Assembly: GCA_946480245.1 (NCBI GenBank) | Contig: CAMLIZ010000007.1 | Span: forward strand, 1-51,223 | DNA length: 51,223 nt | Direction: 5' to 3' | Origin: an uncultured Pseudomonadota bacterium | GTDB taxonomy: Bacteria; Pseudomonadota; Gammaproteobacteria; Burkholderiales; Burkholderiaceae | Shown: positions 24,385-42,326 of the stretch, one piece after another | Position numbering within the stretch: position 1 is the stretch's first letter | Layout of the letters: each line of letters starts with the position of its first letter | Translations under genes and position numbers: made by a program | Notes under the pieces: model-generated | Databases searched by the model: none | The model's input: the letters and a program-made list of their open reading frames with translations, nothing else | Told to the model about the DNA's origin: nothing

Positions 24385-25140
24385 TCAGTGCGCCAGCACG
24401 CCCGCCGGCTTGCCGGCGGCCTGGATGAACTGCGTCAGCGCCGCAAGCTCGGGGATCTGGATCTCGCGCCGGCCCTTCTCGGCAAAGCGGATCACCTGCT
24501 GGCGCGCCAGCCGGCTCAGGGCGCGGCTCACGCTCTCCAGCGTCATGCCCAGGTAGTTGCCGATCTCGGCACGCGTCATGCGCAGCGTAATCTGGTCGGT
24601 ACGCAGCCCGCGCCGCGCCAGCGAGCCGGCCCAGTAGCGCAGGAAGTCCGCCACGCGGGCGTCGGCCGACAGTGTGCACAGCGACATCAGCGAGTCGCGG
24701 TCACGCGTGATCTCGCGGCTCATCTCGGCGTGCATCACGCCCAGCAGTTCCGGGTGCGCCATGCAGGCCTGCAGCAGGGCGTCGTAGCGGATCGCCCAGA
24801 CCTCGCCGATGTCCATGGCCACCGCGTCGCAGCCGTACTGCGCCTTGGCGATGCCGTCGAAACCCAGCCAGTCGCCCTTGAAGTGCAGGCCCACGACCTG
24901 CTCGCGGCCATCGGCAGCCGTGTTCACCACCTTGTAGAAACCGGAATTCAGCACGTACAGGTGGGTGAAGCGCTCGCCGGCCTGGTACACCACGTCGCCG
25001 GCGCGCACCACGCGGCGCTGCACCGGCACCTTCGCGGCCACCAGCTTCAGCATCTCCGCGATGCGCCGCGTCTCGTTGTCCTGGGCGTGGTCGGCCGGGT
25101 GGTGAGCAGCGGGGGCGGTGGCTTGGGCTTGGGCGAGCAT
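24385..25140 (-). CDS. Crp/Fnr-family transcription regulator (DNR/FixK-like, no N-terminal Fe-S cysteines)
   Basis: 251 residues from ATG 25140, selected because GAGGA stands 5 bases upstream; an ATG at 25152 (MRTYM) has no such site. The cyclic-nucleotide-fold domain (about 30-145: VVRAGDVVYQAGERFTHLYV, LHFKGDWLGFDGIAKAQYGC) resembles FNR. The winged helix carries MTRAEIGNYLGMTLESVSRA, with the E-x2-SR pattern that reads TTGAT half-sites in FNR. The four-cysteine cluster of true FNR is absent: no Cys before residue about 100. It may therefore be a DNR-type NO-responsive or FixK-type activator. It is the only candidate in the window for the FNR-like boxes found upstream of norB, nrdJ, uspA and others. 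Its own control is unclear; a palindromic site lies 146 bases upstream. Confidence 0.86.
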   Translation of the reverse strand: MLAQAQATAPAAHHPADHAQDNETRRIAEMLKLVAAKVPVQRRVVRAGDVVYQAGERFTHLYVLNSGFYKVVNTAADGREQVVGLHFKGDWLGFDGIAKAQYGCDAVAMDIGEVWAIRYDALLQACMAHPELLGVMHAEMSREITRDRDSLMSLCTLSADARVADFLRYWAGSLARRGLRTDQITLRMTRAEIGNYLGMTLESVSRALSRLARQQVIRFAEKGRREIQIPELAALTQFIQAAGKPAGVLAH

Positions 25141-25285
25141 GTAGGTCCTCATCGGTTGGGTTCGTGCGATGGACCAGAGTGTCGAAACCCCCGGTCAACG
25201 TGGTGAGAACCCTCGATGTCGCTCGGTAACGCTCGGTGAACGGCCGGTATCCGGCCTGCAACAGCACAGTTGGCCGCTCGCACGG

Positions 25286-25334
25286 TTGACGGCCGTCAAA
25301 CCCCGGTGCGCGCCAACGCATAACCTTGCGCCCA
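25286..25334 (+). promoter_or_regulatory. Perfect palindromic FNR-type site upstream of the carbamoyltransferase-like gene
   Basis: TTGAC-GGCC-GTCAA at 25286-25299 is a perfect 14-base palindrome, 8 of 10 matches to TTGAT-N4-ATCAA. On the plus strand a TAACCT hexamer at 25321-25326 begins 28.5 bases from the centre, one base off the class II position; the predicted start near 25333 gives a leader of about 38 bases to the gene at 25371. No good -10 exists at that distance toward the regulator gene, so autoregulation, if any, would be by other geometry. Confidence 0.55.
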
Positions 25335-28534: not shown

Positions 28535-31417
28535 CTAACCACACGCTCCCACATACCCGCACGCCGTGCAGAAGCTGCAGCCGTCCTTCTGGATCAGCGT
28601 GGTGTTGCCGCACTCGGGGCAGCGGGCGCCGGGCATCGGTGCGGCCGCGGCATGGCCGCCTTCGGGCGACACCAGCACGCCCATCTCCTGCAGCGGGTAG
28701 CCTTGCTCGTCCAGGATGCCGAGCATCGCGTAGCGGTGGATGATCAGCCGCGCCAGATACGCCACCGTCGAAGGCCAGGTCTGCTGGCGCCGCTCGTGCG
28801 GCTGCAAGCTGGGCACGAAGGCCATGAAGTGGCCCAGCGGCTCGGCATACGACAGCAGCTTGCGCAGCTTCATGCCGATCCACGCCGGATCGATCACGCG
28901 CATGTCGAGTGACAGCACGCGGGCCAGCCCGTCCAGCGCGCGCGGATAGTTGCCCGAGAAGCCGATCGCGCAGGGGCGCGTGGCATGCGCGCCGGCGCCG
29001 GGCAGCAGCACCTCCTTGAGCGTCAGCGTGAAATCCTCGCCGGTGCTCGGGTTCTCGATGTCCACGGCCCAGGCCAGCGTGCCGGCCGGGCCGGTGTGCG
29101 GCTCGTCCAGGCTGAACATCGCGTCCAGCACCGGCGTGGGCAGCTTGGCGCCGGTGTCGGGCCACAGGCCGAGCTGCTCGCAACGCCAGCGCACCACCGC
29201 CGCCGTGGCGGCCACCACACCGGGGAACTGGCGCTGCTCGCCGTGCGGCGGAAACGGCATGTCGAACGCGCGCTCCTCCTGCACCGTGGCCATGGCCTCC
29301 AGCTTCAGGCGCACCCAGGCCGGGTCGCGCGCACGCAGGTCCATTGACAAGGTCTTGGCAAGCGCCCCCAGCCCGCGCGGCTGCTCCGCGCCGTTGACCC
29401 ACACCTCGAACGGCAGCGGCCGCGGCACCGCCTCGTCGGACGGCGCCTCGCCCACGAACAGCGCGAACTCGCCATACGGGTGGCGGATCATGTAGCACCA
29501 GGCCGCATTGCCGGCCGGAAAGTCGGGGCGGCCGGGCCAGCGCAGCGAGGCCAGCACCGGCGCGCGCGGCAGGCGCTCCAGCGCGAAACGCTGGTCGGCA
29601 TGCGCGCCCGGCGCCGGCACCGCGGCGGGCTGCGGCGCGGCCTCCACGCTCAACACCGAGCCGAGCACGCGGTTCGGCCGGTAAGTGGCCAGGCCCTTTA
29701 GCCCCGAGGCCCAGGCGCGCAGGTACAGATCCTGGAAGTCGGCATACGGGTAGTCCTCCGGCACGTTCACCGTCTTGGAGATCGCCGTGTCGATGCACGG
29801 CGCCACCGCGGCCACCATCTCCTGGTGCGCCTGCGCGCTCATCTCCAGCGCGGTGACAAACGATGCGGGCAACGGCGCGTCCTGCCCTTTCAGATGTCTA
29901 TACAAGCGCCAGGCGTGGTCCTCGACCGCGTACTCCTTGAAGGTGCCGTCGGGCATGCGCTTCTTGCGGGTGTAGGTCCAGGAGAACGGCGGCTCGATGC
30001 CGTTGCTCGCGTTGTCCGCAAAGGCCAGGCTGATGGTGCCGGTGGGCGCGATCGACAGCAGGTGCGAGTTGCGCAGCCCGTGCTGGCGGATGCGCTCCTT
30101 CAGAGGCGCCGGCAGGCGCGACGCGAAGCTGCCGCGCTGCAGGTACAGGTCGGCGTTGAACAGCGGGAACGCGCCGCGCTCCTGCGCGAGATCCACCGAT
30201 GCGTCATAGGCGGCGTCGCGCATCGCCTCGGCCAGGCGGCGCGCCATGTCGCGCGCAGGCTGCGTGTCGTAGCGCAGGTTCAGCATCGCCAGCGCGTCGC
30301 CCAGCCCGGTGAAGCCCAGGCCCACGCGGCGCTTGCTGCGCGCCTCCTCGTGCTGGCGTTCGAGCGGCCAGTGCGTCACGTCGAGCACGTTGTCGAGCAT
30401 GCGCACGCACACGCGCACCAGCGCGGCGAAGCCGGCGAAGTCGAATCCGGCTGCCGGCTCGAACGGGTCGCTCACGAAGCGCGTGAGGTCGATCGAGCCG
30501 AGGCAGCAGCAGCCATACGGCGGCAGCGGCTGTTCGGCGCACGGGTTGGTGGCGGCGATCGTCTCGCAGTACGCAAGGTTGTTGTCGGCGTTGATGCGGT
30601 CCAGGAACAGCACGCCCGGCTCGGCGTGGTCATAGGTGGACCGCATGATCTGGTCCCACAGCGTGCGCGCCTTCAGCTTGCGATACACCCACAGGCCGTC
30701 GGCGCGCTGGTAGGCGCCGGCGGCCTTCTGCCCTTCACCCGGCGCGGCCTTGTGCACCAGCTCCACGTCGCCGTCGGCCTGCACGGCCTGCATGAACGCG
30801 TCGGTGATGCCCACGGAGATGTTGAAGTTGCGCAGGTCGCCGCCGTCCTTGGCGTGGATGAACTCCTCCACGTCGGGGTGGTCGCAGCGCAGCACGCCCA
30901 TCTGCGCGCCGCGCCGGGCGCCGGCCGATTCCACCGTCTCGCAGGAGCGGTCGAACACGCGCATGTAGCTCACGGGGCCCGACGCACTGGATCGCGTGCT
31001 GCCCACCCACGCGCCGCGCGGGCGGATGCGCGAGAAGTCGTAGCCCACGCCGCCGCCGCGCCGCATGGTCTCGGCGGCCTCGGTGAGCGCGGCGTAGATG
31101 CCGGGGTGGCCGTCGTCGACCTGGGCGATCGAATCGCCCACCGGCTGCACGAAGCAGTTGATCAGCGTGGCGGTCAGCTCGGTGCCGGCCGCGGAGTTGA
31201 TGCGCCCGGCCGGCACGAAGCCGGCCTCCTGCGCGCGCAGGAACTCGGCCTCCCAGTGGCCGCGCCGCTCCGGCGCCTCCACGGCGGCCAGGGCACGCGC
31301 GACGCGGGCGCGCACGTCGGCCACGCTGCGCTCGTCGTCCTTGGCGTACTTCTCGATCAGCACTTCCTCGCTGATTGGCTGGGCGGCGAGAACGGGGCGC
31401 TTCAAGGTGGTGCTCAT
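28535..31417 (-). CDS. nrdJ: Adenosylcobalamin-dependent (class II) ribonucleotide reductase
   Basis: 960 residues. It reduces ribonucleotides to deoxyribonucleotides without needing O2. Catalytic region: [71 protein letters not shown], and [20 protein letters not shown]. The active-site asparagine, cysteine and glutamate stretch is NPCAE. After about residue 640 two similar TSCPD-like units follow ([20 protein letters not shown] and [20 protein letters not shown]), and the C-terminus is a zinc ribbon (CPECGN, then [12 protein letters not shown]). Needs vitamin B12. A class II FNR-like promoter precedes it, which fits use under anoxia. No B12 riboswitch was recognised in the short leader. Confidence 0.93.
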
Positions 31418-31438
31418 GCGGTGCTTCCGGTGGATGAC

Positions 31439-31487
31439 GGGCGAAACGGTAGGCAGTTCACGCCAACGCAGGTTTGATGCATGTCAG
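31439..31487 (-). promoter_or_regulatory. FNR/DNR-like class II promoter of nrdJ
   Basis: Minus-strand box CTGAC-ATGC-ATCAA (31487-31474), 8 of 10 matches with one perfect half. The hexamer TACCGT (31451-31446) starts exactly 29.5 bases from the box centre, giving box at -41.5 and a start at 31439 with a 21-base leader. TACCGT keeps the T1, A2 and T6 that matter most in a -10. Strongest spacing match in the window, still an inference. Confidence 0.6.
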
Positions 31488-31510
31488 CAGGCGCGCCAGC
31501 ACGCAAAGGC

Positions 31511-31561
31511 TTGTCCCGGATCAAGGCGGCGCGGCGCAAAGCTGCATTCAATATGCACCTA
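31511..31561 (+). promoter_or_regulatory. FNR-like box plus NsrR-like operator before the DUF2249 gene
   Basis: TTGTC-CCGG-ATCAA at 31511-31524 (8/10 to the FNR consensus) has its centre exactly 29.5 bases before TTCAAT (31547-31552), a good -10, giving a start at 31559. An NsrR-like palindrome lies over it at 31539-31561: left half AAGCTGCAT, 5-base spacer, right half ATGCACCTA, against the known AANATGCAT-N5-ATGCATNTT. It would cover -20 to +3 and block initiation when NO is absent. Confidence 0.55.
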
Positions 31562-31582
31562 TATCACTTCACAGGAAACCCG

Positions 31583-31852
31583 ATGACCGCCACGACCATC
31601 GACGTGCGCAGCGTGCAGCCGCGCGATCGCCACCCGCTGATCTTCTCCACCTTCCAGGGCCTGCCGCCCGAAGGCGCGCTCGAGCTGGTGAACGACCACG
31701 ATCCGAAGCCGTTGTACGCGCAGTTCGAGGCGCATTTCCCGGGCCGCTTCAGCTGGCAGTACCTGCAGCAGGGCCCGGACCTGTGGCGCGTGCGCATCGC
31801 CAAGCAGAACGGCAGCGACTGCTGCGGCGGCTGCACCTGCAGCGGCAGCTAG
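31583..31852 (+). CDS. DUF2249-domain protein with C-terminal cysteine cluster
   Basis: 89 residues from ATG 31583 (AGGAAA 6 bases upstream); an in-frame ATG at 31481 lies before the predicted transcription start and is rejected on that ground. Motifs: DVRSVQPRDRHPLIFSTFQG, LVNDHDPKPLYAQFEAHFPG, FSWQYLQQGPDLWRVRIAKQ. The protein ends with CCGGCTCSGS, a cysteine-rich tail that could bind iron or a cluster. DUF2249 genes are frequent near nitric-oxide and hemerythrin genes in denitrifiers; the biochemical role is not known. The overlying NsrR-like site places it in the NO response. It is followed after 12 bases by the FmdE-like gene. Confidence 0.82.
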   Translation: MTATTIDVRSVQPRDRHPLIFSTFQGLPPEGALELVNDHDPKPLYAQFEAHFPGRFSWQYLQQGPDLWRVRIAKQNGSDCCGGCTCSGS

Positions 31853-31864
31853 CGGCGCCGCGCC

Positions 31865-32551
31865 ATGCCCTTGCCCGCCTTCTTTGCCCGCGTGCCGCGG
31901 CTGCGGCTGTATGACCCGCTCGCGCAGCTGCTGGGCAGCGCCGACGACGGCATCCTCGACTACGGCTACGAAGACGCGGTGAAGCTGGCGGGGCACTCCT
32001 GCCCCACGGTGGCCTCGGCCTACTGGCTCACCTGGCGCGCATTGCATGCGCTGTATGGCGACGCGCTGCCGCAGCGCGGGGGCGTGCGGGTGGCCTTTCG
32101 CGACGACCTGCGTGACGGCAGCAACGGCGTGCTGGCGGCGGTGGTGCAACTGCTCACCGGCGCAGCAGGCGAGACCGGCTTCAAGGGCCTGGGCGGGCTG
32201 CACGCACGCCAGGGCCTGCAGGCGCGCTCGCCCGATCTGCCGATGGCGCTGCGCTTCACGCGCATCGACAACGGCCACGCGGTGGACGCGATGGCCGACC
32301 TGAGCCTGCTTCCGCAGCCGCCGCGCATGGCCGATCTGGTGCAGCGCTGCATCGACCATCAGGCCAGCGCCGGCGAACTCGCCGAACTGGCCGGCCTGTG
32401 GCAAAGCCGCGTGCAGCGCCTGCTCACCGAGTTCGCCTACGACGACGGCGTATTCGTGATCCGGCCGTCCAACGTGGCGCCCTGGCAGGTGCAGATGCTG
32501 GTGGCGCTGGCGCCGCCACCGCGCCCGCCCGCGCACGACAGGCGCGTGTAG
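31865..32551 (+). CDS. FmdE/FwdE-like protein (formylmethanofuran dehydrogenase subunit E domain relative)
   Basis: 228 residues. The centre GYEDAVKLAGHSCPTVASAY carries the GH-x-CP signature of FwdE-type domains. Next come LPQRGGVRVAF, then DGSNGVLAAVVQLLTGAAGE, which matches the D-A-I-Q-x-LTG region of that fold, although the usual cysteine before it is missing. FmdE-like proteins outside methanogens occur near molybdenum, Fe-S and denitrification genes and are thought to handle metals; the function here is unknown. Probably co-transcribed with DUF2249 (12-base gap) and ends one base before the convergent ubiT. Confidence 0.62.
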   Translation: MPLPAFFARVPRLRLYDPLAQLLGSADDGILDYGYEDAVKLAGHSCPTVASAYWLTWRALHALYGDALPQRGGVRVAFRDDLRDGSNGVLAAVVQLLTGAAGETGFKGLGGLHARQGLQARSPDLPMALRFTRIDNGHAVDAMADLSLLPQPPRMADLVQRCIDHQASAGELAELAGLWQSRVQRLLTEFAYDDGVFVIRPSNVAPWQVQMLVALAPPPRPPAHDRRV

Positions 32552-32552
32552 C

Positions 32553-33005
32553 TCAGGGCGCGGGCACCAGCGGGCCGAGGGCGTCCAGCGTGTTCTTGAG
32601 CACCAGCCCGAACTCGGTGTCGCCCTCCATCACCAGCGCACGCTCGAAGAACAGGCGGTCGGCGTCGTCCTCGCCACGCAGCAGGCGCCAGTAGTGCGGC
32701 AAGGCGGCGGCGATGCGCAGCACCGGCACCGCAGCACGCGGCGCCGGTGCGAAGCCGGCGCTGCCGAGCTGCAGCCGCATCGCGAGCCCGAGGTCGGTGA
32801 CGTCCACCCGCACGCAGCGTTGCGACAGCGCCTCGCGCCCCACCGCATCGAGGCGCGGCCACAGCAGGCGGTTGAGTGCGAGCGACAAGGCCAGCGCCGG
32901 CGGGTGCATCGGCAGCTTGGTCACCAGCGGCCGCAGGCGTGCCGACATTGCCTGCCAGCCGCGCAGCAACGCCGGCCCCTGCAGCGCGGAGTGGGTGGGG
33001 TTCAT
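32553..33005 (-). CDS. ubiT: UbiT, SCP2-domain accessory factor for O2-independent ubiquinone synthesis
   Basis: 150 residues. An SCP2-type lipid-binding fold: FLIPHYWRLL-like region PVLRIAAALPHYWRLLRGED, then DADRLFFERALVMEGDTEFG, LVLKNTLDALGPL. These are the hallmarks of UbiT (formerly YhbT). UbiT is thought to hold the polyprenyl ring intermediate while UbiU and UbiV hydroxylate it without oxygen. The start overlaps the UbiV stop by 4 bases (ATGA), and it is the last gene of the norB operon. Confidence 0.9.
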   Translation of the reverse strand: MNPTHSALQGPALLRGWQAMSARLRPLVTKLPMHPPALALSLALNRLLWPRLDAVGREALSQRCVRVDVTDLGLAMRLQLGSAGFAPAPRAAVPVLRIAAALPHYWRLLRGEDDADRLFFERALVMEGDTEFGLVLKNTLDALGPLVPAP

Positions 33006-33913
33006 GCGGCGATCCAGTCCAGCCCGGCGCCGGCGCGGGCAAAGCCATTGACCAGGCCGCCGGGCAGCGCGTGCGCCTGCAGCCGCTGCAGCGCCGCGGC
33101 CGCCGGCGCGCCGTGGTTCATCACGTCGTCGAAGCTACGCAGCACCTCGGCGAAGCCCTGCGACTGCGGCGACAGGCGCAGGCGCGACACGCCGGCCGCG
33201 CGCAAGGCTTGGCGCTCGCCGATCAGGCACTGCTGCGCGGCCGACTGCGTCTGGATGCCGTTGAGTGCGAGAAACGGCTGGCCTTCGCCGGTGAACAGCG
33301 GCAGGCCGTCGGCGTCGTCGCGGCAACGGAACGCGCATTCGTCCTTGTTCAGGCGATGGTGGCGCGCGGTGAAGCAGCGCGCGGAAAACGCGAGCGGCAG
33401 GCGGCCGAAGCCCCAGGCCTCCACAGGCATCGGCGACGCAATGGCCGCCAGCGTGACCAGCGACAGCTCCACCGGCGCCACCCAGCGCACGGCGCCCAGC
33501 CGCGCATGCTCGTCGAGCGCGGCGCGGCTGTACACGTTGATGTGCGGGCCCAACACGAACGGCAGGCCCGCCTGCGACAGCGCATGCAGCGCCGAGGCGT
33601 CGCCGGCTTCCACCAGCAACTCGCGCTGCTCGGCCACGCGGCGCAGCGTGCGCAGGTCGGCTTCGGATTCCATCAGCACCTGCGTGGCCAGCACCACCTC
33701 CTTGCCTGCCTCGCCGAGCTCGCGCGCCAGCGCCAGCCAGTCGTCGAGCTTCATCTCGTGGCGGCGCGAGCACACCACTTCGCCGAGCACCACGGTGTCG
33801 GCGGGCGAGTCGGCCATGTCGGCGTAGAAGTGCAGCAGCGCGGTGCGCGGCCAGTACGGCAGCACCGGGCCCACGGTGAGCGCGATGCGCGCGTTGTCGT
33901 CGATGGGGGTCAT
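33002..33913 (-). CDS. ubiV: UbiV, peptidase-U32-family anaerobic ubiquinone hydroxylation protein
   Basis: 303 residues from ATG 33913, 5 bases after the ubiU stop; an upstream extension (frame starting 34411) is a shadow of ubiU. The four Fe-S cysteines known for UbiV are in place: one in VVLGEVVCSRRHEMKLDD and three in AFSARCFTARHHRLNKDEC together with AFRCRDD. Other family motifs: YWPRTALLHFYADMADSPAD, FVLGPHINVYSRAALDEHAR and VAPVELSLVTLAAIA. With UbiU it forms an Fe-S heterodimer that hydroxylates ubiquinone precursors in the absence of O2. Confidence 0.92.
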   Translation of the reverse strand: MTPIDDNARIALTVGPVLPYWPRTALLHFYADMADSPADTVVLGEVVCSRRHEMKLDDWLALARELGEAGKEVVLATQVLMESEADLRTLRRVAEQRELLVEAGDASALHALSQAGLPFVLGPHINVYSRAALDEHARLGAVRWVAPVELSLVTLAAIASPMPVEAWGFGRLPLAFSARCFTARHHRLNKDECAFRCRDDADGLPLFTGEGQPFLALNGIQTQSAAQQCLIGERQALRAAGVSRLRLSPQSQGFAEVLRSFDDVMNHGAPAAAALQRLQAHALPGGLVNGFARAGAGLDWIAA

Positions 33914-33918
33914 CAGGT

Positions 33919-34944
33919 TCAGCGCCAGGGGCGGTCGTAGGCACCCAGCGTGTGCTGCTGGCCTTCGGCGAGGTGGCCGAGCGCGGCGGTCCACGCCGGC
34001 TGCACCGCGAAGCGCTCGGGCGCTGCGGCGGCGGCGTCGATCGCCTGGCGCCACACGCGCGTCACCTGCTGCACATAGGCCGGGCTGCGCTGGCGGCCCT
34101 CGATCTTTACCGCGCGCACGCCCAGGCGCATCAACTCGGGCAGCAGCGCCAGCGTGTTCAGGCTGGTGGGCTCCTCCAGCGCATAGTCGCGCCGCCCGTT
34201 CACCTCGAAGCGGCCCTTGCACAAGGTGGGGTAGCCGCGCGGCTCGTCGGGCGTGTAGTGGTCGATCAGCAGGCCGTTCAGGCGCACGTCGGTGCCCTGC
34301 GGCCCGTCGCTCCAGCGCACCGCCGAGGGCGGCGAGCACACGCCGGCGTTGTTGGGCGACTGGCCGGTGGCGTAGGAGGAGAGCGCGCAGCGCCCCTCCA
34401 CCATCACGCACAGGCTGCCGAAGCCGAACACCTCGATCTCGGCATCGGTGTTGCGCAGCAGGTGCCCCACCTGCTGCAGCGTCAGCACGCGCGGCAGCAC
34501 CGCGCGCTCGATGCCGTAGTGCCGGCGGTAGAACGCGATCGCCTCATACGTGGTGGCCGAGGCCTGCACCGACAGGTGCAGCCGCAGCGCGGGGTGATGG
34601 CGGCAGGCGTAGGCCATCACTGCCACGTCGGCCACGATCAAGGCGTCCGCGCCCAGGTCCACCGCCGCGTCGACCGCGCGGTACCAGGGCTCGGGGTCGT
34701 CGGCACGCGCAAAGGTGTTGAGGGCCATCAGCACCTTGCGATCGCGGGCGTGCGCGTAGGCCACGCCCTCGCGCAATTGCTCGTCGCTGAAGTTCAGGCC
34801 CGCGAAGTTGCGCGCATTGGTGGCGTTGCGCAGGCCGAGGTACACCGCGTCGGCGCCGGCATCCACCGCGAGCTGCAGGGCGCGCAGCGATCCGGCCGGA
34901 CACACCAGTTCGGGCTTCGTGAGCCCGCGGGTCGAGGAAGGCAT
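33919..34944 (-). CDS. ubiU: UbiU, peptidase-U32-family anaerobic ubiquinone hydroxylation protein
   Basis: 341 residues. N-terminus ELVCPAGSLRALQLAVDAGA, then DAVYLGLRNATNARNFAGLN is typical of U32 proteins. The Fe-S cysteines are visible: FGFGSLCVMVEGRCALSSYA, NNAGVCSPP and YPTLCKGRFEVNG. The end matches (VQQVTRVWRQAIDAAAA). UbiU forms a heterodimer with UbiV and is needed for ubiquinone during denitrification or fermentation in several proteobacteria. It follows nnrS after 11 bases, so the operon joins NO reduction to quinone supply for the quinol-fed NO reductase. Confidence 0.93.
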   Translation of the reverse strand: MPSSTRGLTKPELVCPAGSLRALQLAVDAGADAVYLGLRNATNARNFAGLNFSDEQLREGVAYAHARDRKVLMALNTFARADDPEPWYRAVDAAVDLGADALIVADVAVMAYACRHHPALRLHLSVQASATTYEAIAFYRRHYGIERAVLPRVLTLQQVGHLLRNTDAEIEVFGFGSLCVMVEGRCALSSYATGQSPNNAGVCSPPSAVRWSDGPQGTDVRLNGLLIDHYTPDEPRGYPTLCKGRFEVNGRRDYALEEPTSLNTLALLPELMRLGVRAVKIEGRQRSPAYVQQVTRVWRQAIDAAAAAPERFAVQPAWTAALGHLAEGQQHTLGAYDRPWR

Positions 34945-34955
34945 GGGCCGGCACT

Positions 34956-36230
34956 CTATCGAGCCGGTGTGCGCGCGCCTTGGCCTGGGTCAACGGTTGG
35001 TGGTGCGGCACGCACGTACCAGCGGCCGTAGCGCAGCGCCCACGCCGTCATGCAGCCGGCCCAGGCCAGTGCCGCCATCGGCAGCAGCCCGGGCCCCGGC
35101 AGCAGTGCCGCGCCCAGGCGCAGCAGCACCGCGCCCTGCAGCAGCCAGAACAGGCGCCATGCAAAGGTGTCGGCCGCCACCGTGCGCCGCTCCAGTGCAC
35201 AGGACATGCGCGTGACCATCGCCAGCATCGTGCTGCCGAGAAAGCCCATCGTCAGCGCGTGCAGCGGCGCCAGGCCGAGCGACAGTGCGCCCTGCGTGAT
35301 CGCCATCAGCGCATGCGACAGCGCCGCGAGCGCGAAAGCGACGCCCAGCCACACGAAGCCCAGGTGCAGCATCGCGATCAGGCGCACGCGCAGGCTCTGC
35401 ACGCGCGCCCAGCGCACGGCCAGGCCGAGCAGCAGCAAGGCCACCGCCAGCTCGAACGCCGCCTGCGCCCAGCGCGCCGCGGCCGGCCATGCGGGCCACA
35501 GCAGCTCGGCCGCCGACAACGCGCCCTGCACCACCACGATGCAGCCCTGCGTTTGCAGCAACCCCGGCAGCGCGGCCGCGCCATAGAACGGCACGATGCG
35601 GTGCGACACCACCACGAACACCAGCGTCACGAAGCACCACAGCCCGCCATGCAGCGCTGCGCGCAGCAGGGGCTGCCGATGCAGCAGCAGGCCGAGCAGC
35701 GCCAGCGCAAGCACGCCGCAACCGGCGGCGCAGGCCGCGGCCACCCAGGCGGCATGCTGCTTGTCGTCTGCCTTGCTGCGCCCGAGCAGGCGCATGAAGC
35801 GCAGCGTGAGCAGCCCCCACGCGAACAGGCTAAGGCTCATGCCGGCTGCGGCCAGCGCCAGGCCGGACATCGCACCGCACAGGAACAGCAACCAACCGCC
35901 GGCATAGGCCAGCACCGGCCACCTCAAACTGCTCGCCGCCACCGGCGCCTGGCGCAGCCACTTGGGCCCGGCGGTGAACAGGAAGCCGGCAAAGAACAAG
36001 GGCATGAAACCGTAGCCCATCAGCAGGCCGTGCACGATGCCGCGCGGCACGGCCCACGCCACCGGCACGCCTTGCGCCTGCAACAGCAGCACGGCAACCC
36101 ACCCCAGCGCCGTTCCGGCCAGCAGCACGGCCGCCGCCAGGAAGGCGATGCGATGAGGCGCCTTCCACAAGTGCGCAAGCCGCCCCGCGGGCGGCTTGCG
36201 CTCGGAAGGCGGCGTGGGCCGCCCGGGCAT
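34956..36230 (-). CDS. nnrS: NnrS-family multi-spanning membrane protein
   Basis: 424 residues with about 12 hydrophobic segments. Family motifs: GIVHGLLMGYGFMPLFFAGF, LFTAGPKWLRQAPV, FVVVSHRIVPFYG, and APLHALTMGFLGSTMLAMVT, with conserved His and Arg in the membrane. NnrS proteins are haem- and copper-containing membrane proteins of denitrifiers that relieve NO stress; the mechanism is not settled. The gene overlaps norB by one base (TGATG). A second NnrS-type gene lies at 40593-41786; the two are distant in sequence and not a recent duplication. Confidence 0.86.
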   Translation of the reverse strand: MPGRPTPPSERKPPAGRLAHLWKAPHRIAFLAAAVLLAGTALGWVAVLLLQAQGVPVAWAVPRGIVHGLLMGYGFMPLFFAGFLFTAGPKWLRQAPVAASSLRWPVLAYAGGWLLFLCGAMSGLALAAAGMSLSLFAWGLLTLRFMRLLGRSKADDKQHAAWVAAACAAGCGVLALALLGLLLHRQPLLRAALHGGLWCFVTLVFVVVSHRIVPFYGAAALPGLLQTQGCIVVVQGALSAAELLWPAWPAAARWAQAAFELAVALLLLGLAVRWARVQSLRVRLIAMLHLGFVWLGVAFALAALSHALMAITQGALSLGLAPLHALTMGFLGSTMLAMVTRMSCALERRTVAADTFAWRLFWLLQGAVLLRLGAALLPGPGLLPMAALAWAGCMTAWALRYGRWYVRAAPPTVDPGQGARTPAR

Positions 36231-38512
36231 CAGCCTGCCCGCACCACGCGCACGGCGGGCGACGCAGGCACCGCCACCACCGGCGAGCGGCGCAGCAGCT
36301 TCAGCGCATACACGGCCAGCACCACGGCACCGGCAGCGAACACCACATCACCCGGCACGCGCAGCCACACCAGCGTTTGCATCAGGCTCGAGTGCACGAT
36401 CTCCGGCGAGCGCGCGTACCACAGGCCCTTGGAGATGCTGGCCCAGGCCTGGTAGATGCCGGCCGGCACCAGCGACATGAACACCATCATCGCCAGGCCC
36501 AGGTTCAGGCCCCAGAAGGCCGGTGCCAGCAGCCGGTCGGCATGCAGCGAGCGCGCATACAGGCCGCGCAGGCAGAACAGCAGCAGGCCGATGCCCAGCA
36601 TGCCGTACACGCCGAACAGCGCCGCATGCCCGTGGGCCGCCGTGAGGTTCAGGCCCTGCACGTAGTACAGCGACGCGGGCGGGTTGATCGCGAAGCCGAG
36701 CATGCCGGCGCCCACCGTGTTCCAGAAGCCCACGGCCACGAAGCACAGGATCGGCCACTTGTAGGCGGCCACCCAGGGCGCCGCCTGCGTGCGCTTGTAG
36801 TTGTGCCAGCCTTCCAGCCCGATCAGCGCCAGCGGCACCACCTCGAGCGCGGAGAACACGGCACCCACGGCGATCACCGAGGTCGGCGTGCCGGTCCAGT
36901 ACAGGTGGTGCAAGGTGCCCAGGATGCCGCCGAACAGGAACACGATGGTCTCGGCGACGATCGCCTTGTTGGCGCTGGCCGCACGCACCAGGCCCAGGCG
37001 GGTGAAGATCAGCGCGACCACGGCGGTGGCGAACACTTCGAAGAAGCCTTCCACCCACAGGTGCACCAGCCACCAGCGCCAGTACTCGATCATCGAGTAA
37101 TGGGTGTGCTGGCCCCAGGTGAGCGAGGTGGCGTAGAAGCCGCCGATGCAGGCCGCCGACAGGAACACCATCGCGATCAGGCCGCGAGTTTCCGAGGGCT
37201 TCATCAGCGCGGGCCACAGTGCACGGCCCATCAGCAGCAGCCAGAACAGCAGGCCGACGAACAGCAGGATCTGCCACACGCGGCCCATGCTGGTGAACTC
37301 CAGCCCCTGGTTGCCGACCCAGAACGAGAAGTCCATGCCCGCGCGTTGCAGGTGGCCCAGCCAACCGGTGGCGGTGGAGCCCACGACGATCAGGATCAGC
37401 GCCCAGAACAGCGCGTCCACGCCCAGCTTCTGCAGCTTGGGCTCATGGCCGGACAAAAGCGGCGCGATGTACAGGCCCGTGGCCAGCCAGGCGGTGGCGA
37501 TCCAGAAGATGCCCACCTGCGTGTGCACGGTTCGGCTGACCACATAAGGCAGCACCTCGCCGAGCGGAATGCCGAAGAACGCGCGCCCTTCGACCGCATA
37601 GTGCGCGGTGATGGCACCCATGCCGATCTGCAACAGCAGCAGGCCGATCACCGTGAAGAAGTACTTGCGCGTGGCGCGCATCGACGGCGTCGGCGTGGCG
37701 CCGAACAGCGGGTCCGACTTGGGCGGCGCGGCCTCGGGCTCTTCCTTGCGGGCGCCCTGCAGCCACAGCATCGAGGCGATGCCGCCGATCAGCAGCACCA
37801 CGCTCACGATCGTCCAGATGGCCGACGAGCTGCCCATCGTGTTGCCCACCAGCGGCTCATGCGGCCAGTTGCTGGTGTACGACAGGCCGCTCTCGTTGGG
37901 CCGGTCGGTGGCCGCAGCCCAGCTGGACCAGAAGAAGAACGCGGTCAGCGCCTGCCGGTTCGATGCGTCGGGGATCGCGTTGTCCTCCATCGCGTACTGG
38001 TCGCGCAGTGCCTCGAGCCGCGGGTCGGTGCCGAACAGGCCCTCGATGTGCTGCGCCACGGCGCGGATGGCCTGCGCACGCTCGGGCGACACGGTGATCG
38101 TGCCGTTGCCTGCGTGGTAGGTGTTGGCGCGCATCGTGGTCTTCACCTGCGCGTCCACCGCCGCCTGGTCGGCAGCGCCGAGACGGTCGAAGCTGCGGTG
38201 AAAGCTCTGCTGCGCATACACGTCGCGCAGGGCCAGCGCCTCGCGGTGCAGCCAGTCGGCCGACCAGTCGGGCGCCACGTAGCTGCCGTGGCCCCAGACG
38301 GTGCCCAGCTGCTGGCCGCCGGCAGCCAGCCAGGCCTGCTGGCCGCGCTGCACCTGCTCGCCGGTGTACAGCGTCTGGCCGTCGGTGGTGACCACCGCCT
38401 TCGGGATCGGCGGTGCGCTCAGGTAGATCTCCCAGCCGAGATAGGCCAGGACGGAGAAGGACAGCAGGCAGATGATGCCCAGCCATCTCCACAACTTGGC
38501 AGTGGGTTGCAT
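36230..38512 (-). CDS. norB: Quinol-dependent nitric oxide reductase (single-subunit qNor)
   Basis: 760 residues from ATG 38512, the usual length of qNor; an in-frame codon at 38599 lies upstream of the predicted transcription start. The N-terminal extension with its own helix and periplasmic domain (QVQRGQQAWLAAGGQQLGTV, WGHGSYVAPDWSADWLHREA) replaces the NorC subunit, so electrons come from quinol. The catalytic core: TVHTQVGIFWIATAWLATGL, HTHYSMIEYWRWWLVHLWVE with GFFEVFATAVVA, HHLYWTGTP, and AHGHAALFGVYGM, giving haem and FeB histidines and the acidic residue near FeB. It reduces 2 NO to N2O at the inner membrane. First gene of norB-nnrS-ubiU-ubiV-ubiT. Also called norZ in some species. 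Confidence 0.94.
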   Translation of the reverse strand: MQPTAKLWRWLGIICLLSFSVLAYLGWEIYLSAPPIPKAVVTTDGQTLYTGEQVQRGQQAWLAAGGQQLGTVWGHGSYVAPDWSADWLHREALALRDVYAQQSFHRSFDRLGAADQAAVDAQVKTTMRANTYHAGNGTITVSPERAQAIRAVAQHIEGLFGTDPRLEALRDQYAMEDNAIPDASNRQALTAFFFWSSWAAATDRPNESGLSYTSNWPHEPLVGNTMGSSSAIWTIVSVVLLIGGIASMLWLQGARKEEPEAAPPKSDPLFGATPTPSMRATRKYFFTVIGLLLLQIGMGAITAHYAVEGRAFFGIPLGEVLPYVVSRTVHTQVGIFWIATAWLATGLYIAPLLSGHEPKLQKLGVDALFWALILIVVGSTATGWLGHLQRAGMDFSFWVGNQGLEFTSMGRVWQILLFVGLLFWLLLMGRALWPALMKPSETRGLIAMVFLSAACIGGFYATSLTWGQHTHYSMIEYWRWWLVHLWVEGFFEVFATAVVALIFTRLGLVRAASANKAIVAETIVFLFGGILGTLHHLYWTGTPTSVIAVGAVFSALEVVPLALIGLEGWHNYKRTQAAPWVAAYKWPILCFVAVGFWNTVGAGMLGFAINPPASLYYVQGLNLTAAHGHAALFGVYGMLGIGLLLFCLRGLYARSLHADRLLAPAFWGLNLGLAMMVFMSLVPAGIYQAWASISKGLWYARSPEIVHSSLMQTLVWLRVPGDVVFAAGAVVLAVYALKLLRRSPVVAVPASPAVRVVRAG

Positions 38513-38551
38513 GGTTCTATGGCGGCACGGGCCGCGCGGTGGTTGACGAAT

Positions 38552-38604
38552 AAGGTGCATGCAATGTGCACCTTTGATTCCGCGCCGACATTGATCCACA
38601 GCAA
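38552..38604 (-). promoter_or_regulatory. norB promoter: FNR-like box overlapped downstream by NsrR-like operator
   Basis: FNR-like box at 38591-38604 (plus strand TTGAT-CCAC-AGCAA, 9/10). Its centre is exactly 29.5 bases before the minus-strand hexamer CACATT (38568-38563), giving a start at 38556. An NsrR-like palindrome at 38552-38574 covers -18 to +5: left half AAGGTGCAT, 5 spacer bases, right half GTGCACCTT; the outer eight bases AAGGTGCA / TGCACCTT are perfectly complementary. Low oxygen would activate, and NO would relieve NsrR. Inferred from sequence. Confidence 0.65.
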
Positions 38605-38647
38605 ACCGCGGGCATCACCCGGGCAACCTGGCGCCACACCCACCGCC

Positions 38648-38707
38648 TTGCGCCAGGTCAAGACTTGTGCGGCGGCAAAGATGGAAGATCAATGCATCTT
38701 TCGGAGG
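38648..38707 (+). promoter_or_regulatory. nsrR promoter: NsrR-like operator, weak FNR-like box, and strong SD before a TTG start
   Basis: NsrR-like palindrome at 38678-38700: left half AAGATGGAA, right half ATGCATCTT (perfect half), 5 bases between. A weak FNR-like box TTGCG-CCAG-GTCAA lies at 38648-38661 (7/10) with GAAGAT (38684-38689) exactly 29.5 bases on; start at 38696, so the operator spans -18 to +5, the same as at norB. A sigma-70 alternative is TTGTGC-17-ATCAAT (38665-38693). The SD GGAGG sits at 38703-38707, 8 bases before TTG 38716. Confidence 0.5.
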
Positions 38708-38715
38708 CCCTCGCC

Positions 38716-39147
38716 TTGAAGCTCAGCACCTTCACCGACTACAGCCTGCGCGTGCTCATCTTCCTGGCCACGCGGCCCGAGCAGCGCGCCACGATCGCCG
38801 AAATCGCCGAGGCTTTTCAGGTGTCGGAGCATCACCTCACGAAGGTGGTGCACTTCCTGGCCAAGCAGGGCTGGCTGGTGAGCACGCGTGGCCGCGGCGG
38901 CGGCCTGATGCTGGGCAGGCCGGCCAGCGAGATCGTCGTGGGCCACGTGGTGCGCGACACCGAAGGCCCGGTGCGCCCGGCCGAGTGCTTCGAGGACGAC
39001 CGCGGCGACTGCTGCCTGCTGCCGGTGTGCCAGCTGCGCGACGTGCTCGGCGAGGCGGTAGCGGCGTTCAACGCCGTGCTCGACCGCTACACCTTGCAGG
39101 ACGTGGTGCGCAACCCGCGCGCGATCCGACGCATGTTGCATACATGA
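38716..39147 (+). CDS. nsrR: NsrR-type Rrf2 family NO-sensing repressor
   Basis: 143 residues from a TTG at 38716. This start is chosen because a clear GGAGG lies 8 bases before it, and family proteins begin MxLTxFTDYxLR, matched here by KLSTFTDYSLRVLIFLA; an ATG at 38692 would put the operator inside the gene. The winged helix is ATIAEIAEAFQVSEHHLTKV with VHFLAKQGWLVSTRGRGGGL. The Fe-S cysteines are present: ECFEDDRGDCCLLPVCQLRD. NsrR holds an iron-sulfur cluster that reacts with NO and so lets go of DNA. It starts an operon with DUF59, a membrane protein and nnrS, and is probably autoregulated. Confidence 0.88.
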   Translation: MKLSTFTDYSLRVLIFLATRPEQRATIAEIAEAFQVSEHHLTKVVHFLAKQGWLVSTRGRGGGLMLGRPASEIVVGHVVRDTEGPVRPAECFEDDRGDCCLLPVCQLRDVLGEAVAAFNAVLDRYTLQDVVRNPRAIRRMLHT

Positions 39148-39148
39148 G

Positions 39149-39484
39149 ATGAGCATGAGCCAGCCCTTCCCCTACCTCGGCGAAGAGCCGCTGCGCGAGC
39201 CCATCACGGCCGCGCTGCGCCGCGTGATCGACCCCGAGGTGGGCCTGTCGATCGTCGACGTGGGCCTGATCTACCAGGTGACCGTGGCGGACCAGCGCGT
39301 GCACGTGCTGATGACCATGACCTCGGCCGCCTGCCCGGCGGTGGACGAGATCATGGACGAAGCCGAACGCCGGCTCGACCCCGTGGTGCCGGCCGCCTAC
39401 CGCATCGAGCTGGAGCTGTGCTGGGAGCCGCCGTGGACGCCCGCCTGCATCACGCCCGAGGGGCGCAAGCAGATGGGGTGGTGA
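39149..39484 (+). CDS. DUF59/MIP18-family iron-sulfur assembly protein (SufT-like)
   Basis: 111 residues. The domain pattern is ALRRVIDPEVGLSIVDVGLI (D-P-E-x9-GLI), then TMTSAACPAVDEIMDEAERR with the conserved cysteine, and CWEPPWTPACITPEGRKQMG (W-x-PPW-x-P, second Cys). Members (SufT, PaaD, MIP18) help insert iron-sulfur clusters into target proteins. The ATG lies one base past the nsrR stop; a second ATG two codons on is also possible. Encoded within the NsrR operon, so it is plausible that it repairs clusters damaged by NO. Confidence 0.88.
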   Translation: MSMSQPFPYLGEEPLREPITAALRRVIDPEVGLSIVDVGLIYQVTVADQRVHVLMTMTSAACPAVDEIMDEAERRLDPVVPAAYRIELELCWEPPWTPACITPEGRKQMGW

Positions 39485-41802: not shown

Positions 41803-41877
41803 AACATGCATCGCGCATGCACCTTCAACTGATGTTGCTCAACGCGGCAGGCAAGCGCCGCCCCTAGCATCGACCCA
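41803..41877 (+). promoter_or_regulatory. Cytochrome c gene promoter: NsrR-like box beside an FNR-like box at -41.5
   Basis: NsrR-like palindrome at 41803-41825: left half AACATGCAT (full match to AANATGCAT), right half ATGCACCTT (one mismatch to ATGCATNTT), 5 bases between. FNR-like box CTGAT-GTTG-CTCAA at 41829-41842 (8/10), centre exactly 29.5 bases before TAGCAT at 41865-41870; start predicted at 41877. Here the NsrR site lies upstream of the activator site (-74 to -52) and not over the start, unlike norB. Confidence 0.55.
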
Positions 41878-41909: not shown

Positions 41910-42326
41910 ATGCCGAGAACCGCCGCCCTTCTGCCTGCGCTGCTGCTGAGCCTGCTGGCCGCCTGCGGCAAGGCCGACAACAGCGTCCCCACCCCGGGCC
42001 CGGCCTCCGCGCCGACGCCGAAGGTCGAGGCGCCTGCCGCGCCCGCGGCCACCACCACCGCACAAGGCGACCTCGACAAGGGCGAGCATGTGTTCAAGTC
42101 CACCTGCGCGCTGTGCCATGCCAGTGGTGCGGCAGGCGCTCCGCTGTTCAAGTCCAAGGAAGACTGGGCGCCGCGCATCGCGCAGGGCAAGGACACGCTG
42201 TACGCGCACGCGCTCGGCGGCTTCACCGGCAGCAAGGGCGTGATGCCGCCGAAGGGTGGCAACACCGCGCTGGCCGACGCCGACGTGAAGGCGGCGGTGG
42301 ATTACATGGTGTCGAAGGCGCAATAG
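41910..42326 (+). CDS. Lipoprotein cytochrome c5-type (class I, one haem)
   Basis: 138 residues. AAAGGA 6 bases before the ATG. Lipoprotein signal with lipobox LLAAC near residue 19, then a disordered Pro/Ala-rich linker, and one cytochrome c domain from about 55: haem site CALCH, then APLFKSKEDWAPRIAQGKDT, LYAHALGGFTGSKGVMPPKG with the methionine ligand, and ALADADVKAAVDYMV. The layout matches c5-like cytochromes. Being anchored and periplasmic, it could feed electrons to NosZ or a nitrite reductase. The NsrR-like and FNR-like sites upstream point to expression during NO production. Confidence 0.88.
   Translation: MPRTAALLPALLLSLLAACGKADNSVPTPGPASAPTPKVEAPAAPAATTTAQGDLDKGEHVFKSTCALCHASGAAGAPLFKSKEDWAPRIAQGKDTLYAHALGGFTGSKGVMPPKGGNTALADADVKAAVDYMVSKAQ

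Follow-up and report, generated by a model that had tools for sequence, protein, structure and literature searches.

Predicted dual control by an FNR-family activator and an NsrR-like repressor, with unusual spacing, at three promoters of a denitrification gene cluster

Are the genes around the NO reductase gene norB controlled jointly by an activator of the FNR family and by the repressor NsrR, and is the geometry of their promoters shared by related bacteria? The window (the whole stretch of 51,223 nucleotides that was analysed, 70% G+C) contains a denitrification cluster, and a first-pass annotation had described an FNR-like box followed by an NsrR-like operator before three of its genes:

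31580–31852, plus strand: DUF2249 gene, 90 amino acids (PF10006, E 1.4e-30)
36230–38512, minus strand: norB, quinol-type NO reductase, the type being read from the domain pair (PF22085, PF00115)
38716–39147, plus strand: nsrR, Rrf2 family (PF02082, E 7.1e-36), likely TTG start at 38716

On its 3' side, norB is followed by nnrS and then by ubiU, ubiV and ubiT. These three genes of oxygen-independent ubiquinone synthesis (32553–34944) lie on the same strand after norB-nnrS, possibly in one operon. The nsrR gene, divergent from norB, precedes an FeS-assembly-like gene, a gene that probably encodes a membrane protein, a second nnrS and a cytochrome c gene, beyond which lie nosL, an ABC-transporter ATPase gene, a nosR-like gene (602.6 bits, under the cut-off of 1000) and nosZ, which is over its cut-off. 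The DUF2249 gene is 6.7 kb distant, and nrdJ, which encodes the class II ribonucleotide reductase, diverges from it. A GGAGG motif is found about 8 bases 5' of the TTG start of nsrR, and homologs support this start, most of the first ones listed having the N terminus MKLSTFTD or a near-identical one. Among the best 120 of 2935 homologs, the closest NsrR proteins are those of Aquabacterium sp. A7-Y (79%) and Ideonella sp. BN130291 (76%); the search for a near relative sharing the gene order reached at best 66% in the genomes searched.

The 9-5-9 palindromes announced for norB, nsrR and the DUF2249 gene are present where they had been placed, and a fourth one precedes the cytochrome c gene:

31539–31561, centre 31550, plus strand: NsrR-like operator of DUF2249 (16/18)
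38552–38574, centre 38563, minus strand: NsrR-like operator of norB (18/18, the top score of the window)
38678–38700, centre 38689, plus strand: NsrR-like operator of nsrR (16/18)
41803–41825, plus strand: fourth NsrR-like site, 5' of the cytochrome c gene at 41910–42326 (17/18)

These four palindromes (16–18/18) outrank the rest of the window, where the runner-up reaches 14/18. The window scan gives 10 NsrR-like matches (the four places counted on both strands, plus two matches with 3 mismatches); 100 shuffles yielded 1.02 on average and never more than 5. All four sites are near NO genes and fit gATGyAT-N5-ATrCATc, the consensus palindrome given in PMC1274295, provided that the arms may carry G in place of A and C in place of T. 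Sites of at least 16/18 number 70, four of them the window's, in the 1.62 Mb formed by 80 norB loci and the window, and 65 of the 70 sit at most 350 bp 5' of a matched cluster gene (norB, nsrR, DUF2249, nnrS, the FeS-assembly-like gene or, in the window, cytochrome c); the other 5 do not. The four predicted operators are well supported by these computations.

Two further arrangements were observed. In 11 norB loci (L027, L029, L032, L034, L046, L047, L052, L060, L069, L073 and L078), two NsrR-like sites lie 26–28 bases apart 5' of norB, and L069 has an additional 9/10 box upstream of the pair. At the cytochrome c promoter of the window the order is reversed, the NsrR-like site (17/18) being followed downstream by the FNR-like box CTGATGTTGCTCAA (41829–41842, 8/10); 22 bases past this box lies TAGCAT, which is the -10 element of some relatives' DUF2249 promoters.

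Regarding the activator, the boxes of the three promoters are as follows, scored against TTGATN4ATCAA:

31511–31524, centre 31517.5, plus strand: FNR/DNR-like box of DUF2249, TTGTCCCGGATCAA (8/10)
38591–38604, centre 38597.5, minus strand: FNR/DNR-like box of norB, TTGCTGTGGATCAA (9/10)
38648–38661, centre 38654.5, plus strand: FNR/DNR-like box of nsrR, TTGCGCCAGGTCAA (7/10 strict, 8/10 in Y/R form)

Each box is upstream of its operator, with 32.5 bases between the centres at DUF2249 and 34.5 at both norB and nsrR; these distances, and matches of 7–9 of 10 positions, reproduce what had been claimed. The nsrR box is the weakest, and its membership of the FNR type is borderline. Over the best of 26 upstream positions, a range of our own choice, the chance of the observed score in dinucleotide shuffles is 0.0045 for DUF2249, 0.00025 for norB (1 of 4000 shuffles) and 0.038 for nsrR. 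FNR-like boxes are more frequent in the window (45) than in its shuffles (mean 14.98), and for this reason we prefer the real rates of the window (0.00088 per position for at least 8/10 and 0.00016 for at least 9/10, with the Y/R consensus form taken from relatives), which give about 0.004, 0.004 and 0.023, and jointly about 4e-7 if the boxes are independent. The three boxes are supported jointly, the nsrR box not by itself.

There is also a second FNR-like box between DUF2249 and nrdJ (31474–31487, 8/10, or 9/10 in Y/R form), 69.5 bases from the NsrR centre of DUF2249 and 63.5 before nrdJ. In Y/R form it ties with the box at 32.5, and a best-score rule picks the one at 69.5. Its conservation before nrdJ is mixed in the 11 rows listed, i.e. 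10 relatives and the window, with the best two boxes each: boxes of 9/10 are found in the window (63.5), L017 (78.5) and L048 (77.5), boxes of 8/10 in L049 and L061 (73.5 both) and L107 (61.5), and the remaining 5 of the 11 rows have no box of at least 8/10 near such a distance.

Is this geometry conserved? The 80 norB loci supplied DUF2249 upstream regions, as did the 70 best places (tblastn, at least 70 bits) in the genomes of one family, in which 132 of 399 genomes had a match. L091, L104 and L109 duplicate the genomes of L011, L004 and L017 and were omitted; 83 hits were scored, at most three boxes being weighed per promoter and the top-scoring one taken. An NsrR site of at least 16/18 precedes DUF2249 in 34 of the 83 hits, that is, 33 relatives and the window. 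In 26 of these 33 relatives a box of at least 8/10 lies 44.5–46.5 bases from the NsrR centre; the other 7 have a box at 65.5 (one), 67.5 (two) or 77.5 (one), or none (three). Because these promoters are orthologs of one another, the counts do not represent independent events. By the same best-scoring box, none of the 33 relatives has a box at 32.5–34.5; under looser scoring, a perfect box precedes DUF2249 in L085, 32.5 bases from a weaker NsrR-like site (15/18). The window, with 32.5, 34.5 and 34.5, falls outside the usual spacing of its relatives and is shorter by about one helical turn.

Genome-wide scans extend this result. An exact composite with a gap of 10–40 occurs at 10 places in 10 of the 399 genomes of the sampled family, and nowhere in the reversed control. 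In nine of the ten, the distance D between the box centre and the NsrR centre is 45.5 or 46.5, and these nine precede DUF2249 (four), norB (two) or nsrR (three). The tenth, L153 (G058:C16:16987-17033), has D 28.5 and precedes a gene that probably encodes a membrane protein. In the 40 genomes with a close NsrR (E <= 1e-40), a search at D = 45.5 with 3 mismatches allowed finds 31 places in 25 genomes (control 0). By coordinates, 16 of them are before DUF2249, 4 before nsrR and 2 before norB; 4 more are 2.3–2.5 kb before nsrR, at the expected place of norB, 2 are just past nsrR, and 3 have no assigned gene. The same search at D = 34.5 finds 2 places in 2 genomes (control 0), and both carry 3 mismatches and resemble coding sequence; 34.5 is ruled out as a general spacing of the family.

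The composite module is concentrated at DUF2249, norB and nsrR, and 34.5 is not its usual form. Composite control of these three genes, as first proposed, is supported by the nine exact composites before them, and the boxes are kept in related genomes at all three; what did not survive is the common geometry as the conserved form, since relatives prefer 44.5–46.5.

When identical upstream sequences are counted once, any composite is found in 13 of 93 norB stretches and in 11 of 107 nsrR stretches besides the window. Short norB spacings with perfect boxes exist in L016 (31.5) and L008 (32.5), and weaker short composites in L066 and L022 (33.5 each) and L034 (28.5); the short form of the window's norB has parallels among relatives. 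Before nsrR, four composites are strong at 44.5–45.5 (L180, L151, L159 and L160) and one is weak at 46.5 (L021), the remaining six being at other distances, including a weak one at 32.5 in L065. In any locus examined, the short form was seen at no more than one of the three promoters, most genomes being covered for fewer than all three promoters.

The first-pass annotation also took as support that each box centre is exactly 29.5 bases before a -10 element. The hexamers at this position are TTCAAT (4/6) at DUF2249, CACATT (3/6) at norB and GAAGAT (3/6) at nsrR, and no promoter passes in a sigma-70 scan of 31400–39200. The predicted starts, 31559, 38556 and 38696, each lie 41.5 bases downstream of their box centre; the "exact" 29.5 therefore restates the class II rule and gives no independent support. 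In the relatives, 29 DUF2249 promoters (box 44.5–46.5 from the NsrR centre, NsrR site of at least 15/18) were aligned with the box set at -41.5; 20 of them have A at -11, 19 have A at -8 and 22 have T at -7, so a -10-like element is enriched at the class II position. An exact TAnnAT touches the operator in 17 of the 29, ending on its first base in 14 and one base earlier in 3, with neither in the other 12; the first operator base is T in 25 of 29.

It may be that only the NsrR operators function at some promoters of the window and that the FNR-like boxes, above all that of nsrR, are decayed or fortuitous. We regard this as possible but rather unlikely. The left half-sites are degenerate at all three (TTGTC, TTGCT, TTGCG), the nsrR box reaches 7/10 with a chance of 0.038 over the 26 positions, and the 34.5 spacing is so rare in the 40 relatives; however, all three boxes fall at 32.5–34.5, which is the basis of the joint figure given above, and the TTGCG left half also occurs in 4 of the 29 DUF2249 composites at 44.5–46.5 (L089, L090, L092 and L132).

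Another explanation, which we consider improbable, is that the distances conserved in relatives reflect the shared descent of one promoter rather than function. Most of the 26 cases are indeed the same orthologous DUF2249 promoter, but the 44.5–46.5 spacing recurs with 10/10 boxes before norB (L012, L014 and L156) and before nsrR (L151, L159, L160 and L180), in other gene orders, and the spacer between the box and the -10 element varies in sequence.

Last, the identity of the two regulators has to be considered. The closest solved chain to the Rrf2 protein is 5n07, named NsrR, which we take to be that of S. coelicolor. The protein has cysteines 91, 99 and 105, presumably the three cluster ligands, and an FTD motif at 6–8, whose Asp8 we assume to be an NsrR feature; among the best 120 of 2935 homologs, the C-X7-C-X5-C spacing is found in 114 and the Asp in 119. 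The NCBIfam NsrR model NF008240 gives 117.8 bits, under its cut-off of 182; the protein is therefore called NsrR-like, although this equivalog model may cover less than the whole family. That it is instead a RirA-like iron regulator and no NO sensor is very unlikely: RirA has the same C-X7-C-X5-C spacing and its model scores slightly higher (121.8), but this score too is under its curated cut-off (193), the predicted operators are at NO reductase and NnrS genes, many of the 114 homologs with this spacing are named NO-sensitive repressors by their source, and the 5n07 match and Asp8 speak for an NsrR-like protein.

The candidate for the activator is encoded in the same window:

24385–25152, minus strand: FNR-family regulator lacking an N-terminal Cys cluster (PF00027, PF13545)

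Its top PDB match is an FNR-type regulator, its ESVSR motif is presumably the FNR-type recognition helix, and its cysteines are at 108, 130 and 159 only. Since it lacks N-terminal cysteines, it is unlikely to sense oxygen in the manner of FNR. It is an unproven candidate for the reader of the boxes. A box TTGACGGCCGTCAA (25286–25299, 10/10 in Y/R form) lies about 140 bases 5' of its start.

We consider that a dual switch, FNR or DNR together with NsrR, is probably the best explanation of the DUF2249, norB and nsrR promoters. What is observed is the presence of the sites, the order and spacing in which they occur, their conservation before the same genes, and the -10-like element of the relatives; we infer binding, signals, start sites and which activator acts. 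Counting against this explanation are the short distances and poor -10 hexamers of the window, the 7/10 score of the nsrR box, the 7 of 33 relatives and 12 of 29 aligned promoters that depart from the pattern, the small share of norB and nsrR stretches with any composite, and the slightly higher score of the RirA model. The upstream box near -41.5 would be bound by an activator of the FNR family (DNR or FNR), which would recruit RNA polymerase as at class II promoters. NsrR, whose gene neighbours norB, would occupy the downstream palindrome, over the -10 and start region, and block transcription until NO damages its iron–sulphur cluster. The three genes would then require the activator and NO together, and NsrR would restrain its own synthesis.

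This type of control has a precedent. We take COG4309 to be DUF2249, which fits the gene order of several relatives, where DUF2249 is immediately 5' of norB. In 2005, Rodionov et al. (PMC1274295, sections on these sites) predicted a DNR site upstream and an NsrR site downstream for norB/nirK of C. violaceum, COG4309-norB of R. solanacearum and nnrS2 of Burkholderia, and assigned COG4309 to the NsrR regulon of three beta-proteobacteria. The idea of composite control is thus not new, and the window adds another example of the DNR and NsrR kind: it is alike in site order, genes and logic, but its norB and DUF2249 are apart and its nsrR carries the module too. The same sections give no distances for the paired sites. 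They also describe the enterobacterial hcp-hcr promoter, with an FNR motif upstream and an NsrR motif downstream, which differs in the gene and in that anaerobic FNR acts there, not DNR. In Neisseria, according to the passages of PMC10187123 on this region, aniA requires FNR and norB is repressed by NsrR, and the region that the two genes share holds two NsrR motifs; unlike in the window, the Neisseria norB has no nearby FNR site. Our literature search found no paper joining NsrR to DUF2249 by name, none on NsrR in Comamonadaceae with RegPrecise, and none on NsrR together with FNR at 41.5 and hcp. As for the "local NO-plus-anoxia regulon" proposed at first, composite control at the three genes stands and the signals are plausible, but the boxes as such do not discriminate between FNR (oxygen) and DNR (NO), and the 2005 prediction names DNR (PMC1274295, same sections).

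Judged from its DNA, the window appears to be a real case, with unusual spacing, of an already predicted dual control by activation and NO-relieved repression. It is conceivable, if rather doubtful, that in this lineage the NsrR operator has moved by about one helical turn towards the activator at all three promoters, from just past the -10 element onto it; if so, this shift would be a coordinated change, within one regulon, in the way the repressor blocks the polymerase. For the sampled family, the results turn a weak pattern of three sites into a testable rule: the centres of the activator box and the downstream NsrR operator are usually about 45.5 bases apart, and in many cases a TAnnAT -10 element touches the operator. 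This rule could aid the annotation of NO regulons in denitrifiers, and the window is a natural exception with which the importance of the spacing may be gauged.
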